Below are positions 23,837-45,215 of a stretch of 64,000 nt of DNA, piece after piece. Origin of the DNA: Halorientalis marina (GTDB taxonomy: Archaea > Halobacteriota > Halobacteria > Halobacteriales > Haloarculaceae). Made by a program: the position numbers and the translations under genes. Every line of letters begins with the position of its first letter. Position 1 is the first letter of the stretch. The notes below the pieces were generated by a model that made no database searches, was not told the DNA's origin, and saw nothing but the letters and a program-made list of their open reading frames with translations. The stretch lies in contig NZ_CP095489.1 in NCBI RefSeq assembly GCF_023028345.1, forward strand, positions 1-64,000. The letters are read 5' to 3'.

Positions 23837-23917
23837 AATCGGAGGACAAGACGCTATTAGATGAAATTGGCAACGGTGGTCCTGGTAGTAACTAGTCGGA
23901 TTGATTGGGGCAGGGGG

Positions 23918-23937
23918 TTACTGGCAACACCGGAGAG
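23918..23937 (+). repeat. origin-box-like repeat 2
   Basis: TTACTGGCAACACCGGAGAG; matches the consensus TTACTGGCAAnnGTGGAGWG at 18 of 20 positions or better. Confidence 0.55.
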
Positions 23938-23971
23938 GGTACTGGATAAACTGGCACTGACGGTTGCGCGG

Positions 23972-23991
23972 TTACTGGCAAAAGTGGAGAG
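23972..23991 (+). repeat. origin-box-like repeat 3
   Basis: TTACTGGCAAAAGTGGAGAG; full match to the consensus core. Same orientation as repeat 2, 54 bp apart. Confidence 0.6.
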
Positions 23992-24025
23992 GGTATTGGC
24001 AGTACTGGTGTTGGCGGTTGAGAAG

Positions 24026-25282
24026 TTACTCCAGAACCCGATGCCGCTTGGCAGTTTCACGAATATCGTCGAGCTCTCCGAGTTCACTTTCGAGTGCGTC
24101 GAGGGCCGACGACAGGGAGACATCAAGCTCGTATTCGTTGTAGTTTCCGCGTCCACTCGACGAGTCGACCAACCGTAAAATCCCGTGGAGGCTCAAATCC
24201 GACAAGTGGTCGTGTACCCGCCTGCGTTTCAGTGGTTCACTACCGTGATTTCGAAGAACTGCTTGATATCGCTCATAGATCAGTTTCGTTCGTTCAGGCG
24301 TTTCACCTTCTGCCGCTAGCTGGCAGACAGTCAGGAGCACATACTGCCCCTGCCGGGTCAACGAATGCATCCCTTCGACAACCTGTTGTCGCTGGATCTG
24401 ATGCTTGGCCTCCCGAACGTGGTCTTCGGTGATTTCCGCCTCTCCACCCGCCATCGCGTCGTTCTCGGCGATATCGGCTGCTTTCCGGAGTAACCGTAAC
24501 GCCTGCCGAGCAGATCCCGAGTCCTGTGCAGAGAATGCGGCGCACAGTGGGATTACATCTGATTCGAGGACATCGTCGTAGAGCGCGATATCGGCTCGCT
24601 GCTTGAGAATATTCTGCAGTTCAGTCGCGTCGTACGGAGGGAACAAGATTTCCTCTTCGCAAAGAGTGTCCTTGACTTTCGGAGAGAGGTTTTCTCGGAA
24701 CTTGAAGTCGTTCGAGATGCCGACCACACCGATTTTCACATCGAGATCCAATTGCGAGCGTGCTCGTGGAAGCTCGTACAGAATATCGTCATCCGAGCCG
24801 ATGTTATCGATCTCGTCCAGAACCACGAGAATAGTCCCACCGATCGACTCAAGGTCGTTGTAGAGTTCGTTGAAGATGCGTTTTTGTTGATACCCGGTTT
24901 CGCTCATCGGTTCGCGCGAAGACGAGACTGTGGTGAGAGGGTGAGAAGGAGAGCGAATCTCGTTCACGAGATTGACCGCTACCTGATAGGATGTGGTGCA
25001 GCCAGTACAGTTGAGTTCAATAACGTTGAGATCGACGTCGTCGTACTCTCCGGCGGATTCTTGCAGCTCCTCAAGAAGATCGTGCGTAGCAGCTGTCTTC
25101 CCGACGCCGGTAACGCCATACAGAAAGACGTTGTTCGGTTGCCAGCCCTGAATGACAGGACGGAGAGCGGCCGCATATTCGTCGAGTTCTTCGTCCCGCT
25201 CCTCGAGTGTCTCTGGCTGGTAATCATCCCGGAGGACGTCTTTATCCTGGATGATGAACGATTCTCGATTGAATCGGCCCAT
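24026..25282 (-). CDS. orc1: Orc1/Cdc6-type replication initiator
   Basis: 418 aa. AAA+ module with Walker A GVTGVGKT (56-63) and Walker B ILVVLDEIDNIG (151-162), followed by a lid and a C-terminal winged helix (LTRQGQYVLLTVCQLAAEGE ... VHDHLSDLSLHGILRLVDS). Family role: binds origin boxes next to its own gene and opens the origin. ATG 25282 (MGRFNRESF) is preferred over 25294 because a TATA-like TTTTATGA lies about 29 bp upstream. Flanked by 20-bp repeats on both sides, so it is the cognate initiator of this origin. Confidence 0.93.
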   Translation of the reverse strand: MGRFNRESFIIQDKDVLRDDYQPETLEERDEELDEYAAALRPVIQGWQPNNVFLYGVTGVGKTAATHDLLEELQESAGEYDDVDLNVIELNCTGCTTSYQVAVNLVNEIRSPSHPLTTVSSSREPMSETGYQQKRIFNELYNDLESIGGTILVVLDEIDNIGSDDDILYELPRARSQLDLDVKIGVVGISNDFKFRENLSPKVKDTLCEEEILFPPYDATELQNILKQRADIALYDDVLESDVIPLCAAFSAQDSGSARQALRLLRKAADIAENDAMAGGEAEITEDHVREAKHQIQRQQVVEGMHSLTRQGQYVLLTVCQLAAEGETPERTKLIYERYQAVLRNHGSEPLKRRRVHDHLSDLSLHGILRLVDSSSGRGNYNEYELDVSLSSALDALESELGELDDIRETAKRHRVLE

Positions 25283-25391
25283 AGGCGGACTCAAGACGAA
25301 GAGCCATCATAAAACCAGGGGTTCCAGTATCACCACTAACCCACCACTCGGACCAGTTATGCCAGTACCGCCCTCGGTTATAAAACACACA

Positions 25392-37719: not shown

Positions 37720-38154
37720 ATGGTCGAAATTCCCAGCTCCCTTCGCTCTCTGTTCAGTGCTCCAATTAATGAGCAGGATGGGACGTACATAGTGGAGGTC
37801 CCTTCGAATGAAATCAACTATGAAGCGTTATCAGATGACGAAACATATCGCGTAGCTATTCTGGAATCTTCTGTCTCGACGGAGTCGTCAGTACAACAGG
37901 GGTCACAGAGAGCACCTTCTCGTGAGACTGCGAGCCATTCTTCCTCAGGACCTCCCGTAGAGGAAGGCGAAATACGTGATACGACTATCGAGACAGTCGG
38001 CGATCAGGGCGATGGTATCGCAAAAGTCGAACGTGGCTACGTCGTGATCGTTCCCGGCGCTCAACCCGGCGACGAGCCAACAGTCGAAATCGAACAAGTT
38101 AAGGAGAACGTCGCGTTTGCGAGCATCGTCGATAGCGATCAGCAATCACTCTAA
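37720..38154 (+). CDS. TRAM-domain protein, copy 1
   Basis: 144 aa. N terminus EIPSSLRSLFSAPINEQDGTYIVEVP, a Ser-rich linker, then a C-terminal TRAM domain (EIRDTTIETVGDQGDGIAKVERGYVVIVPGAQPGDEPTVEIEQVKENVAFA in order), a beta-barrel that binds RNA. The haloarchaeal family with this N terminus is widespread; TRAM proteins can act as RNA chaperones. A paralogue is at 41833-42246, so two copies lie 4 kb apart on either side of the nucleotidyltransferase and partition genes. Confidence 0.8.
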   Translation: MVEIPSSLRSLFSAPINEQDGTYIVEVPSNEINYEALSDDETYRVAILESSVSTESSVQQGSQRAPSRETASHSSSGPPVEEGEIRDTTIETVGDQGDGIAKVERGYVVIVPGAQPGDEPTVEIEQVKENVAFASIVDSDQQSL

Positions 38155-38668: not shown

Positions 38669-39364
38669 TCAGCTCAGCTGGTCAATCTGTGCGGACAGAT
38701 ACTCTTGGAGAGCGGTGACAGTTTCTTCTGAGACAGCTGAGGCCCCGAAGTCACTCCGAAATCCGTGCTTGAGTTCGTCGCTCTCCAAGATATCCAGTCC
38801 ACGCTCAAGTTGCTCCCGTAGGGCATTGTCGTCCCCTCGCCGCAGGTGAGGCGTGACAGCGTTGAGGTCGATCTCTTCAGCCACTGCCAGGACGTCCCGG
38901 AGGTCTGTTTCGCGGCCGCTGTGGAGCTTTGCCGCCACGAGGACGGCCCCATCGATCACTCTGGCCGTCGTCGTCACTATGCCCCCGCTCACCTCCTGTT
39001 GGTGGCTGTGGTCGTACAGGTAGTCGAACGACCACTGTGCCTCCGTCTGGCGACACCCGAGTCCGTTCACCAAGAGGTCGAAGCCGATCGGCTGTTGCGG
39101 CGTGAGCCGCTTCTCGTACTCGATGACTTCGGTGTCGTAGAACCACTCCTTGGCGTGGCTGTCCGTCTCCTCGAATCCCTGCTGTTCGAGGAACTCGACG
39201 AAGTCAGCCTTTGAGTCCGGCGCGACGACGATATCGAGGTCGGTGGAGAAGCGAGCATTGAACGCTGAGACAGCGTAGCCGCCGACGAGAACGTACTCGT
39301 GCCCCTCTTGGGTGAGTTCCTCGAGCAGTTCGATGAGTGCGTCGCTTCGGTTGGTGAAGCTCAT
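38669..39364 (-). CDS. AbiEii-like nucleotidyltransferase, copy 2
   Basis: 231 aa, the same length as copy 1 at 19463-20158. Signature YVLVGGYAVSAFNARFSTDLDIVV (GG ... T-D-x-D), followed by QQPIGFDLLVNGLGCRQTEAQWSFDYL and VLVAAKLHSGRETDLRDVL. Diverged from copy 1 but alignable throughout. Its ATG overlaps the upstream HTH gene by 4 bp. Candidate toxin of a type IV-like toxin-antitoxin module. Confidence 0.7.
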   Translation of the reverse strand: MSFTNRSDALIELLEELTQEGHEYVLVGGYAVSAFNARFSTDLDIVVAPDSKADFVEFLEQQGFEETDSHAKEWFYDTEVIEYEKRLTPQQPIGFDLLVNGLGCRQTEAQWSFDYLYDHSHQQEVSGGIVTTTARVIDGAVLVAAKLHSGRETDLRDVLAVAEEIDLNAVTPHLRRGDDNALREQLERGLDILESDELKHGFRSDFGASAVSEETVTALQEYLSAQIDQLS

Positions 39365-40035
39365 GGCTGTGCCCGTTCTGTCTCTCGATACGTGACGCCG
39401 AGGTCGAGATCCTCGTACATCCGGTCGAGCATCGCGAGCGCCGACTGGAACTGGGCGTAATTCTCGCGCATATACTCGATTGTCTCAGCTCTCGGGATCA
39501 CCGGGTACCCCCCGACGTCCTCGATATCGAGTGAGGGGCGTGGCTCGAGGACGACCTGTAGCGGTCCGTCCAGCTCGTCTCGGGGCTGTCGCTCAACTGC
39601 GGTCGGGAGGTCGAAGGACTCGAAAAACGCCTCCCATGCGTCGACGTCCTGCTCGCGGACAGCAAGGAACAGCGGATAGTCGTCTGGATTCCGACCGACC
39701 TGGTAGCCGCCCTGAGTCCACACGTAGACGGCGTCGATCCGCGTGAACGCGAACGGCCAGTCACTGAACTGCGGGATGACGTAGGCTTCCTCGATAGAGG
39801 GTGGACTGACGCCGGCGCTGGCAGCCACGAGCTCGCGTGCGGCGTCCCTCACGCGCTCGTCGACGACAGTGAGGCCGTCATCATAGGCAACGTAGCCTGC
39901 GTCTTCGAGACGGTTGACGGCCTGTCTCACCGTCTCGTACGGCGTGTGGAGGTGTTGGGCGACACGGCGAATAGAGTCACCACTCTCGATGGCGAGGATG
40001 GTCTGTGCCGCCGTGTCGTCGAGCACCTCATACAT
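39361..40035 (-). CDS. AbiEi-like winged-helix antitoxin, copy 2
   Basis: 224 aa. Winged helix SIRRVAQHLHTPYETVRQAVNRLEDAGYVAYD and a C-terminal domain with VIPQFSDWPFAFTRIDAVYVWTQGGYQVGRNPDDYPLF in order, closely parallel to copy 1 (same motif order and residue spacing). Likely antitoxin and regulator. Next to the partition locus, where toxin-antitoxin genes often stabilise plasmids. Confidence 0.65.
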   Translation of the reverse strand: MYEVLDDTAAQTILAIESGDSIRRVAQHLHTPYETVRQAVNRLEDAGYVAYDDGLTVVDERVRDAARELVAASAGVSPPSIEEAYVIPQFSDWPFAFTRIDAVYVWTQGGYQVGRNPDDYPLFLAVREQDVDAWEAFFESFDLPTAVERQPRDELDGPLQVVLEPRPSLDIEDVGGYPVIPRAETIEYMRENYAQFQSALAMLDRMYEDLDLGVTYRETERAQP

Positions 40036-40149: not shown

Positions 40150-40438
40150 AACGATTATAACGAATTCAACGAACAAAACGAACTGAACGAGAAAAACGAA
40201 TGTATTGAACGCATTCTGAGGAACGAACTGGCACCCTCTGCCCGATGAACAAAACGAAGGAAACGAACGTAACGAACAGAATGAATGAGTTGATGGCAAC
40301 GAGTGAGTTTGCTTCAACGAGTGGAACGAACAGTTGGTTTTAACACCGTAGTAATCCTCTCACCGAGTGAAACACCCTCACCGAACGCACCGAACTAAAC
40401 GAGAAAAACGAACGAAACGAACACAACGAGAGAAACGA
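40150..40438 (+). repeat. AACGA iteron array, 9-bp period (centromere candidate)
   Basis: AACGA recurs at 40150, 40159, 40168, 40177, 40186, 40195 (strict 9-bp steps), then 40222, then 40253, 40262, 40271, with degenerate copies and 40298, 40316, 40325 in the same 9-bp phase, then 40398, 40407, 40416, 40425, 40434. The array ends six bases before the parA ATG. It is best read as the plasmid centromere or a ParB-type binding region that also covers the parA promoter. Confidence 0.85.
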
Positions 40439-40443
40439 AGATA

Positions 40444-41262
40444 ATGACCGACACCAATACCGCACGAATCACGGTGGCGAATCAAAAGGGAGGCGCGGGG
40501 AAAACAACTGACGTCATTCATACTGGCGGCGCACTTTCCGCCCGAGGCCACGACGTCCTCCTGGTCGATATCGATTATCACGGCGGGCTCACCTGCTCAC
40601 TCGGCTACAACGATCTGTACTACGATACCGACCGTACGACACTGTTCGACGTTCTCGACTTCGACCAGATGGAGTCGGTGAACGATATCATCGTCGAGCA
40701 CGAGGAATTCGACATCCTTCCCGCCAGCGAGAAGCTCGCGAACAACAAGAACATCCAGACGCTGCTTGAGGCGCCGAAGAGTCGCGAGCGGTTGGAGATG
40801 ACTCTGGACGAGCTCGACAAGGACTACGACTACATCATCGTCGACACGCCGCCATCTCTGAACGTCCTCACCGACAACGCCCTGGTCGCGACCGGCAACG
40901 TAGTCATCCCCGTCATTCCCGAGAAGCTCAACGCCAACAGCCTCCAGATTTTCGCAAAGCAGCTGAGTTCCCTCGAACAGGCGTACGGAGACATCAATCG
41001 GCTCGCAATTGTCTGTAACCGCGTCGAGCAGAACGCTGAACACCGCGACACCATCGAGGAGATCAAGTCGGCGTACTCCCTCCCGGTGTTCGAGATCCCG
41101 AAGCGGACCGACCTCTCTCAGTCGATTGGCGAGGGTGTGTCCGTCTTCGGCTTCGGCAAGGAGAACCAGCGCGTCGAGGATGCACGCGACCTGTTCAACG
41201 AGATCGCCGACCTGTTCGACGAGACGTTTGAGAAGACTGCGCCTGAGGAGGTGGAAGCATGA
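40444..41262 (+). CDS. parA: ParA/Soj-type partition ATPase
   Basis: 272 aa. Deviant Walker A VANQKGGAGKTTD (about 12-24), Walker A' LLVDIDYHGG (switch I region), and Walker B DYIIVDTPPS (about 130-140). Standard single-domain ParA size, without an N-terminal HTH. It separates replicon copies by ATP-driven movement on the nucleoid. The start is right after the iterons, and the stop overlaps the next ATG (ATGA). One of the clearest plasmid markers in the window. Confidence 0.93.
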   Translation: MTDTNTARITVANQKGGAGKTTDVIHTGGALSARGHDVLLVDIDYHGGLTCSLGYNDLYYDTDRTTLFDVLDFDQMESVNDIIVEHEEFDILPASEKLANNKNIQTLLEAPKSRERLEMTLDELDKDYDYIIVDTPPSLNVLTDNALVATGNVVIPVIPEKLNANSLQIFAKQLSSLEQAYGDINRLAIVCNRVEQNAEHRDTIEEIKSAYSLPVFEIPKRTDLSQSIGEGVSVFGFGKENQRVEDARDLFNEIADLFDETFEKTAPEEVEA

Positions 41263-41663
41263 CCGACGGCTGGGGCGATGCTTCCGGCATCGAGGGCAAC
41301 TACGAAGAGGGGGACGAGGCTGATTCCAGCGAAACGAGCGATGTGAGTGAAACGGTGGAATCCAGTTCATCGACCGAAACGACCGAATCGACTTCAACGA
41401 GTGAAACGAACGAAACGAGCAAAACGAAGACGAACATCAAGGACGAGTGGAACGGGCGGACGATCTACATTCCCGACGATGTCCTCGACGAGATGGAGGA
41501 CACCTACCTCGAGTCCCAGCTGAAGCTCCGCAAGGCGGGTCAGGACGAGTTTAAGAAGAACCGCCACTTCTACCCGCTACTCGTTCAGTTCGGTGTTGAG
41601 GCGCTCTCTGAGGCAGATGCCGAGGAAATCCAGACTCGGCTCTCGGAACTCGGCGACGAATGA
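41259..41663 (+). CDS. ParB-like partner with repeat-coded linker
   Basis: 134 aa. N-terminal acidic tail, a low-complexity linker of Ser/Thr/Glu/Asn triplets (SETSDVSETVES ... TSETNETSKTKTN), and a C-terminal domain WNGRTIYIPDDVLDEMEDTYLE resembling ribbon-helix-helix DNA binders used as centromere-binding partners. The linker is encoded by AACGA repeats in 9-bp phase (41333, 41378, 41396, 41405, 41414, 41423), the same pattern as the upstream iterons. ATGA overlap with parA confirms the operon. Confidence 0.7.
   Translation: MTDGWGDASGIEGNYEEGDEADSSETSDVSETVESSSSTETTESTSTSETNETSKTKTNIKDEWNGRTIYIPDDVLDEMEDTYLESQLKLRKAGQDEFKKNRHFYPLLVQFGVEALSEADAEEIQTRLSELGDE
41333..41427 (+). repeat. in-gene AACGA iterons, 9-bp phase
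   Basis: AACGA at 41333, 41378, 41396, 41405, 41414, 41423 and AACGG at 41351; all spacings are multiples of nine. The triplet reading frame turns each into a codon pair in a Glu-Thr-x repeat. Confidence 0.8.
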
Positions 41664-41832: not shown

Positions 41833-42246
41833 TTAGTCGTAATAGTGCAGACGTTCGACAACCTCCGCGAAGGCAACGTTTGTCTGGACATCAGTGATCT
41901 CGACAGTAACACGTTCGCCCTGTTCGGTATTGGGAACTATGACGACGAAGCCGCGCTCGACACGGGTAATGCCGTCGCCCTGCTCGCCGATATCTTCGAT
42001 TTCGACAGTCCGTTGCTCTCCCTCTTCAACGGGCGGCGCCTGTGGAGTATGCGTGGACTGGGGTTTCGTGTCGGTCCCACCGGCAGTATCCGATGTCGGT
42101 GTGGCCAGCACAGCTACACGATACGTCTGACCGGGCTGGAGATCACCACTCTGAACCTCCTGTTCTGGGACTTCGATAACAGACGAGCCGTTGCGTTTCT
42201 CGACAGACGCAGAGAACAGACAACGAAGTTGGTCAGGAATATCCAT
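41833..42246 (-). CDS. TRAM-domain protein, copy 2
   Basis: 137 aa from MDIPDQLRCLFSASVEKRNGSSVIEVP. Same plan as copy 1 at 37720: an N-terminal module, a Ser/Thr/Pro linker, and a TRAM barrel (TVEIEDIGEQGDGITRVERGFVVIVPNTEQGERVTVEI). The open frame begins at 42387 but ATG 42246 matches the N terminus of the paralogue. Probable RNA chaperone. Just downstream of the partition genes, opposite strand. Confidence 0.8.
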   Translation of the reverse strand: MDIPDQLRCLFSASVEKRNGSSVIEVPEQEVQSGDLQPGQTYRVAVLATPTSDTAGGTDTKPQSTHTPQAPPVEEGEQRTVEIEDIGEQGDGITRVERGFVVIVPNTEQGERVTVEITDVQTNVAFAEVVERLHYYD

Positions 42247-42361
42247 CAGTCGTAACCTACACAGCTTGTCTAGCGGAAAACACTTGATTCTACTCCTCAA
42301 CAGTCCGTCAGACGATCTCGGGCAGATGGGAAGCCACAAATCCAAGGAATCACATCGGCAC

Positions 42362-42526
42362 ATGATGAGCGACTGCCTTTCTCTCAAAGAACAGGCAGCA
42401 GATCATCTCAGGACAGCCCTCAACGCGGACGATCCTGACACGAAAAATTTCCACATCCGGAGTGCGCTTCAGTTCGAGGAGTGCATCGAGGCGACAGAAC
42501 GAACTGAACACGCCCAAGCCGATTGA
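42362..42526 (+). CDS. small helical acidic protein
   Basis: 54 aa, MMSDCLSLKEQAADHLRTAL ... HAQAD. Predicted as two helices (SLKEQAADHLRTALNADDPDTKNFHIRSALQFEECIEA in order), typical of haloarchaeal small proteins with a DxxxKNFHIRSALQ pattern. Divergent from the TRAM gene. No function known. Confidence 0.5.
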   Translation: MMSDCLSLKEQAADHLRTALNADDPDTKNFHIRSALQFEECIEATERTEHAQAD

Positions 42527-44219: not shown

Positions 44220-45215
44220 CGCTCTTGCGAAGTAGATTGTTGATAGCGAGAGCTGCGGCTGAAAGTCGAAGAGGGCAAGGGCACCGCGCCAGCGGTGCCC
44301 GATATGTTCCCAATACGCCGGTTTGTGTCGGAATCGGCTGCAGCGGACCTGCTCCAACAGGTTCGCTGGCGTGATGGCGTCGAGTGCCCCCGCTGCCGTT
44401 CTGACCTGACGGTCAGAAACGGCAGCTATCGGGTGTATCAACGGTATTTGTGTAAGAATTGCGGTCGAACATTCAACGACAAGACCGGCACGATCTTCGC
44501 CCACTCGAAACTCTCGCTGAAAGAATGGTACTTCACGATCTACGTGTTCTTACGGTTCAACACGAGTATTCAACAGATTGAGGCGGAACTCGATCTTTCG
44601 TACAGAACGGTCAGACGGCGCGTCGAGCGCTTCGCGAGAGCGCTCGACGCGCCTTCGATCACGCTGTCTGGACCGGTCGAAATTGACGAAGTGTACGTCT
44701 CTGCTGGCCTCAAAGGCCGCGAGCGCGACCAGGAGTCGCGCTCGCGTGGCCTGTCCACGCGTGGCCGAGGATCGTACGACGGCGATAAACCGCCGGTGTT
44801 TACGCTGGCCGATCGTGGTTCTGGCGACCGGTACGTCGTGCCAGCGAAATCCGCCGACGAATCGACGATTCGACTCCTGCTTGCTGACCACGACGAGGAG
44901 TCGCTGACCGTCTATACGGACGGATTTCGGGCCTACGATCCGCTCGAAGAAGACGACGCTTTCACCCGCAAATACGTCGTCCACGGCGATGGAGAATACG
45001 CTGACGGCGACATCCACGTCAATACCTGCGAGAGCCACGCGTCGCTGACGCGACGGTGGCTCTCGCCCCACCGAGGAGTGTCAAAAGACAAACTAACACC
45101 GTATCTCAGAGCCTTTCAGCTCCGGCAAGAACTCTACAGAAAACCAGGTGACGAAGCACTCAAACATGCTCTCGACGCTGCCCTCTGAAAATCAACAACG
45201 TGCTTCACAAGAGCG
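44220..45215 (+). mobile_element. intact IS1595-type element
   Basis: 996 bp. Left end CGCTCTTGCGAAGTAGATTG and right end, on the reverse strand, CGCTCTTGTGAAGCACGTTG, a 20+ bp imperfect terminal repeat. Flanked on both sides by TTCCTTTTT (44211-44219 and 45216-45224), a 9-bp (or 8-bp plus T-run slippage) target duplication. It contains one complete transposase gene. It split an IS630-type relic. Confidence 0.8.
44295..45188 (+). CDS. IS1595-type transposase
   Basis: 297 aa. N-terminal zinc ribbon CPRCRSDLT ... RYLCKNCGRTFND, HTH-like helix (QQIEAELDLSYRTVRRRVERF), then the DDE core PVEIDEVYVSAGLKG, LTVYTDGFRAY and the NTCESHASLTRRWLSPHRGVSKDKL end motif with the final Asn/His triad variant. 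Domain order fits the IS1595 family (ISXO2-like). Appears intact and may be mobile. Confidence 0.85.
   Translation: MPDMFPIRRFVSESAAADLLQQVRWRDGVECPRCRSDLTVRNGSYRVYQRYLCKNCGRTFNDKTGTIFAHSKLSLKEWYFTIYVFLRFNTSIQQIEAELDLSYRTVRRRVERFARALDAPSITLSGPVEIDEVYVSAGLKGRERDQESRSRGLSTRGRGSYDGDKPPVFTLADRGSGDRYVVPAKSADESTIRLLLADHDEESLTVYTDGFRAYDPLEEDDAFTRKYVVHGDGEYADGDIHVNTCESHASLTRRWLSPHRGVSKDKLTPYLRAFQLRQELYRKPGDEALKHALDAAL

Follow-up and report, generated by a model that had tools for sequence, protein, structure and literature searches.

Does a set of 9-bp repeats that continues from the DNA in front of a haloarchaeal parA gene into the codons of the small gene behind it act as DNA, as protein sequence, or as both? 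The question is posed by contig NZ_CP095489.1 of Halorientalis marina, of which we analysed positions 1 to 64,000 (the window, meaning that whole 64,000-nucleotide stretch). In the in-gene array the DNA letters are held more strictly than the protein letters that they encode, and comparison with relatives indicates that the stretch probably doubles as a protein-binding site and a coding sequence.

The proposed partition operon and its products

The contig is 99,424 bp in size and carries an Orc1/Cdc6 gene, and is therefore most likely a plasmid. The start of the small gene overlaps the stop codon of parA directly upstream (ATGA), and its relatives also sit downstream of ParA, both in plasmid records and in haloarchaeal genomes; its product is referred to here as CBP, for its proposed role (Table 1). 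The ParA protein matches Pfam AAA_31 (2.2e-35, from residue 9), and a Pfam scan of its 272 residues found no separate N-terminal HTH domain. Type Ib ParABS systems have a Walker-type ParA of ~200-270 aa without a large N-terminal HTH domain, a small CBP gene directly downstream of parA and a repeat-type centromere upstream, and their CBP, of ribbon-helix-helix fold, binds the repeats and activates ParA. The H. marina locus has the corresponding ParA size and domain, the small downstream CBP gene, and repeat arrays upstream of parA that constitute a predicted centromere; for the N-terminal and CTPase domain of type Ia and chromosomal ParB, Pfam and NCBIfam scans of CBP gave no match (E<=1). The locus is best explained as an operon for plasmid partition of the ParA type, carried by a haloarchaeal replicon and encoding a small CBP.

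Table 1. Features of the parA-CBP locus and the Orc1/Cdc6 gene, in window coordinates.
Feature	Position	Strand	Remarks
Orc1/Cdc6-type replication protein	24026-25294	-	
Upstream iteron block 1	40150-40226	+	AACGA at 40150, 40159, 40168, 40177, 40186, 40195, 40222
Upstream iteron block 2	40253-40329	+	AACGA at 40253, 40262, 40271, 40298, 40316, 40325
Upstream iteron block 3	40398-40438	+	AACGA at 40398, 40407, 40416, 40425, 40434
parA	40444-41262	+	272-aa Walker-type ATPase, NQKGGAGKTT; from ORF and Pfam AAA_31
Small parB-like gene, proposed centromere-binding protein (CBP)	41259-41663	+	134 aa
Conserved N-terminal segment of CBP, MTDGWGDASGIEGNY	41259-41303	+	A8 to Y15 invariant in 20 aligned sequences
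In-gene iteron array, in codon frame	41333-41427	+	Encodes Ser/Thr/Glu linker; AACGA at 41333, 41378, 41396, 41405, 41414, 41423, AACGG at 41351
Dense in-gene block	41396-41427	+	Four contiguous 9-bp units; S-T-S-E-T-N-E-T-S-K-T-K
C-terminal domain of CBP, proposed DNA-binding	41436-41660	+	Strand(s), then helices

The full-length structural model of CBP is poor (pLDDT 56), with residues 8-61 below 50 and devoid of regular structure, and the model of the C-terminal domain alone has a mean pLDDT of 88 and shows two strands followed by helices. Foldseek searches with both models gave no match at E<=0.001, a PDB sequence search with CBP gave no match to solved structures, and a search of PDB sequences with a profile built from 20 domains found no significant hit, to SegB or otherwise; Pfam RHH_1 matches one of the 20 members (E=0.8). 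In view of these searches, a ribbon-helix-helix fold of the C-terminal domain is putative. The conserved N-terminal segment may contact ParA.

Iterons before and within the genes

The iteron unit reads about AACGARYRA. Upstream of parA it forms three blocks that are each internally phased at 9 bp, with phases that differ between blocks (1, 5 and 6 mod 9); the 40150-40195 copies of block 1 are six contiguous units, and block 3 consists of five contiguous units that end 5 bp before the parA start codon. A sequence-only reading of the window had proposed that centromere-type iterons run on inside the parB-like gene, where they would be translated as a Glu-Thr-x linker. All of the AACGA positions and the 9-bp phase that it listed are correct (the named in-gene copies are all 5 mod 9), and an additional off-phase AACGA at 41409 arises from overlapping AACGAACGA. 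The codon frame reads AACGA as xxA ACG Axx, and every copy therefore yields Thr; Glu-Thr-x holds as the commonest form of the linker, but what is conserved is this DNA pattern. The linker peptide follows from the unit, since the purine-pyrimidine after the core gives Asn or AGY-Ser, and the purine and A that precede the next core give Lys or Glu.

Among the phased counts listed for the 64 kb of the window, three or more AACGA in one 9-bp phase within 110 bp occur only in the upstream region and the in-gene array, and AACGA is the top 5-mer by this phased count. The triple pattern AACGA-N4-AACGA-N4-AACGA has 10 matches in the 4.75-Mb genome, all of them at this locus (eight upstream and two in the gene), and the reversed control pattern has none. 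The triple pattern occurs in 86 of 194 haloarchaeal genomes, and the matches listed include some away from such loci; arrays that are not at a matched CBP locus (e.g. G001:C3:70525-70556, G093:C2:62993-63024 and G039:C6:1123-1145) are possibly other partition or replication sites.

The iterons in front of parA and those in the CBP gene are closely alike. The window linker and the DNA upstream of parA have 59 nine-base windows in common (at most one mismatch), compared with means of 11.1 for 500 synonymous-codon redraws and 28.8 for 500 within-linker codon permutations, and none of the redraws or permutations reaches 59. Spacer base frequencies of upstream and in-gene units correlate at r=0.94 (16 values; 107 and 37 distinct units respectively), and 31 of the 37 distinct in-gene units are found upstream too. 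In the commonest class, with 48 loci, 992 bp separate the final in-gene copy from the final upstream one.

Selection on codons in close relatives

Relatives were drawn from 82 plasmid records found by tblastn, where the organisms among the matches listed are haloarchaea, from a scan of genome contigs that gave 50 loci, and from a profile search with matches in 190 of 391 genomes of the class, from which 30 loci were added together with 100 further regions; the viral collection yielded one relative. CBP was recovered in 190 of 192 sequences (window included), with a same-strand ParA-like ORF upstream in 175 of the 190, and the upstream comparison covers 173 loci, leaving out L049 and L050. As some loci are one genome found in two collections, counts of distinct genes are given as well. 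Type I, the AACGA type to which the window itself belongs, comprises 115 loci with 89 distinct genes.

At 105 type I loci the sequence extends 400 bp or more upstream; all of them carry upstream AACGA arrays, and 104 have at least three phased copies both upstream and in the gene. The sequence-only reading had named freely changing codons and loss of the AACGA phase as evidence against a DNA role, and this is not what the relatives display, as 113 of the 115 loci keep at least four in-phase in-gene copies (L168 has two and L060 three). Its expectation of lowered synonymous change is likewise borne out. On a tree of the 89 distinct genes, built from parA, N-terminal and domain codons with the linker excluded, and only approximate because its parA part was cut out at a constant offset, unaligned, third codon positions within the window's AACGA copies (12 sites) have 2.31 changes per site, versus 10.06 at other linker third positions (31) and 11.52 at third positions of the C-terminal domain (76); the core positions are slower at p=3e-5 and p=1e-6 respectively. 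Choosing cores by their own conservation would be circular, and they were therefore defined from single sequences; cores taken from L009, L044, L047 and L174 give the same direction, with p from 2e-5 to 0.004 against other linker third positions.

Codon usage was counted in 46 distinct linkers (48 loci of the first scan plus the window, with L048-L050 excluded). With the phase set from AACGA itself, which is a choice among three codon phases, in-phase Thr is encoded by ACG in 303 of 354 instances, compared with 31 of 164 for off-phase Thr in the same linkers, 48 of 129 in the rest of the CBP gene and 172 of 521 in parA. Directly before an in-phase Thr, 345 of 354 codons have A as their third base despite differing residues, and Ser after such a Thr is AGY in 160 of 161. 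Linkers with less than 60% identity to that of the window (22 of the 89) have ACG at 133/167 in-phase and 6/61 off-phase Thr.

The dense block was compared across 52 distinct 135-aa genes, and its four Thr codons are ACG in 50/50, 52/52, 52/52 and 52/52 of the genes with Thr at that position. Diversity at its core third positions is 0.021 versus 0.226 in the domain, and at its non-core first and second positions 0.133 (11 sites) versus 0.026 in the domain (148 sites). Spacer residues vary, with Glu, Lys, Ser, Gly, Ala and others before Thr, and Ser, Asn, Lys, Val, Thr and others after it. The usual pattern is reversed here, with frozen synonymous sites and free amino-acid sites in a DNA unit of exactly three codons.

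Distant relatives with other iterons

Some distant relatives have iterons of other sequence. L052, L054 and L056 (pNG200, pHTIA and pHSAL2) have 9-mers like TCACAGAAC before parA, and the pHTIA linker TCA CAG AAC GCA CAG AAC has 19 of 19 bases in common with upstream DNA; the L134 linker has a 22-base match to upstream DNA, with one mismatch and in reverse orientation. An earlier linker-versus-upstream statistic used 450 bp of upstream DNA and is weak for relatives with few iterons. The test reported here covers 32 clusters formed at 75% domain identity; for each, the linker of one member is compared with the 114 bp around the estimated parA start, against synonymous redraws. Likeness has p<0.05 in 12 of the 31 non-type-I clusters, eight of them below 0.01 (Fisher p=1e-8), and the cluster's own upstream DNA ranks first of 32 in six of the 31; control segments (parA and the domain) are below 0.05 in 7 of 160 (Fisher p=0.999). 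Likeness is not significant in the other 19 clusters, eight of which have a TY(M/L)YL strand, and within-linker codon permutation over the 31 clusters is also not significant (Fisher p=0.36). The latter counts against the pattern, although we think that permutation has little power here, most codons of such linkers already fitting the iteron. By the redraw comparison, the linker DNA follows its own, different iteron in part of the distant clusters.

The L092 domain is 45% identical to that of the window, and L092 keeps both the strand WNGRTIYL and AACGA, the latter at parA and in the linker, which suggests that CBP is the reader of the iterons. Clusters with the strands RSFYL, RSIYL and RYMYL have other iterons, a pairing judged by eye. 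The upstream match of L092, L147 and L133 reaches the first parA codons, such that coding DNA is compared with coding DNA; judged by these matches, this is a further case of iterons within coding sequence. The L092 repeat ATGACTGGAACGACTGAAACGATCGAAACG extends into the parA start. The first parA codons of L147, L133, L138 and L139 (e.g. SKPSEPYR) resemble the triplets of their own CBP linkers in both DNA and protein. L092 (from IMG/VR, on a contig classed as viral) and L152 (from a genome) are each on a 46,391-bp contig.

Proposed function of the in-gene array

We consider it likely that CBP binds both arrays and that its linker is translated from a run of the sites that it recognises. The upstream arrays would be CBP binding sites, serving as the centromere and probably as an operator, and the iterons continue in the codon frame of the CBP gene, where they encode the linker that joins the C-terminal domain to the N-terminal segment. 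CBP would most likely coat both blocks, which are ~1 kb apart with parA between them; the two bracket parA and could be bridged. Such coating would enlarge or bridge the complex formed for partition, and might in addition repress the operon or act as a roadblock on it. We infer a partition or autoregulatory role for the in-gene array. A broader proposition, that throughout a large haloarchaeal family of ParA-CBP systems the linker is a translated centromere dictated by the binding domain, such that a change of specificity rewrites array and linker, appears to us evenly balanced. Read in this manner, E-T-S/N would stand for AACGA and S-Q-N and A-Q-N for CACAGAAC, with other triplets elsewhere, on either strand, and protein, binding site and gene would be tied to one another and travel as a single matched unit.

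The main rival for function is that the in-gene array serves only to autoregulate the operon, as an operator or a roadblock, and has no part in partition. Modules of this kind are often autoregulated and often have sites that overlap par promoters, as the parS sites of pSM19035 do (PMC9499535), and the in-gene block is downstream of parA, where bound protein could stop transcription. However, long upstream arrays of the same unit are present at the same locus, and the four contiguous in-gene units equal the minimum described for full ParA activation in pSM19035 (PMC9499535); we regard autoregulation alone as unlikely, if deserving of serious attention. It is more doubtful that the arrays serve replication rather than partition and are read by another protein, either the plasmid Orc1/Cdc6 or a host protein. 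There is an Orc1/Cdc6 gene in the window, but it is ~15 kb away from the arrays, which in the H. marina genome are confined to the parA-CBP locus, and the correspondence by eye between domain strand and iteron, changing in the RSFYL, RSIYL and RYMYL clusters and retained in L092, also speaks against another reader.

That the repeats spread without function, through slippage or through gene conversion acting across the two arrays, is disfavoured and in our estimate very improbable. Both arrays do consist of short direct repeats with a common orientation, but in-gene spacers resemble those of the upstream array at their own locus no more than those at other loci (1.649 and 1.643 of 4 respectively; 80 distinct loci), and cores are frozen while spacers vary; as there is no homogenisation of spacers within a locus, ongoing gene conversion fails to explain the likeness of the units. 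Finally, the Ser/Thr/Glu linker might be conserved for the protein alone, the DNA pattern being incidental. Conservation of the peptide in many close relatives would suit this reading, but within the reach of sequence evidence the codon tests reject it and its probability is negligible, given that codon choice in AACGA is unlike that for the same residues off phase or elsewhere in the operon and that residues vary at the DNA spacer positions.

A review counts among open questions how halophiles manage several replicons and what archaeal centromeres are (PMC5120986), and confirmed binding would provide a defined centromere for haloarchaeal megaplasmids. It would also mean that the sequence of a low-complexity linker is explained by DNA binding instead of protein function, which calls for care in interpreting such linkers elsewhere. 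Dual-use coding DNA is often argued from one genome; here there are dozens of natural variants.

Relation to known partition systems

The pB171 par2 blocks parC1 and parC2 are on either side of the operon and the second block is outside genes, whereas the second block of H. marina is inside the second gene of its operon. The two systems are alike in that pB171 has two centromere blocks for one parAB operon (PMC4270457). The pSM19035 delta/omega system, whose ParB is of ribbon-helix-helix type, also combines ParA with a small non-HTH ParB and has contiguous short direct repeats near the par promoters; as described, its parS repeats are of 7 bp and overlap the promoters of par genes, with a minimum of four contiguous repeats, whereas those of H. 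marina are of 9 bp and one block forms codons of the ParB-like gene (PMC9499535).

Partition sites inside genes are already known. The repABC plasmids carry the partition site parS within the 5' end of repB, which encodes the protein that binds it, but this parS is a single 16-bp palindrome, in contrast to an array with a three-codon period that forms a linker (PMC9040568). The archaeal SegAB system resembles the H. marina locus in pairing a ParA-type ATPase with a small partner protein, which in SegAB is site-specific and is said to contain an RHH domain; SegB sites are reported as mostly intragenic 13-bp motifs scattered over the chromosome, unlike the 9-bp array of H. marina, which is confined to the operon in its genome (PMC12284271). 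Searches of titles and abstract beginnings in the open-licence PMC literature found neither partition-site repeats that encode a CBP linker nor a haloarchaeal plasmid CBP of the H. marina type. What appears to be new is an iteron array of three-codon period that encodes the linker of the protein presumed to bind it and is kept by selection at the DNA level, and, in part of the family, a linker that seems to change with the iteron.

Neighbouring genes

The partition locus is flanked by genes for paralogous small proteins at 37720-38154 (+) and 41833-42387 (-), which are 44% identical over 138 residues; the protein of the former has a TRAM domain. Two adjoining genes upstream of the iterons on the opposite strand (38669-40035, -) encode one protein with a weak nucleotidyltransferase-like match (AbiEii/NTP_transf_5, below cut-off) and another with weak HTH matches, and by context are a possible toxin-antitoxin pair. 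A 54-bp tandem repeat of about two copies (23917-24030) is directly beside the Orc1/Cdc6 gene. The ORF at 44295-45188 (+), near the partition locus, resembles on inspection a zinc-ribbon transposase and is presumably IS1595-like.
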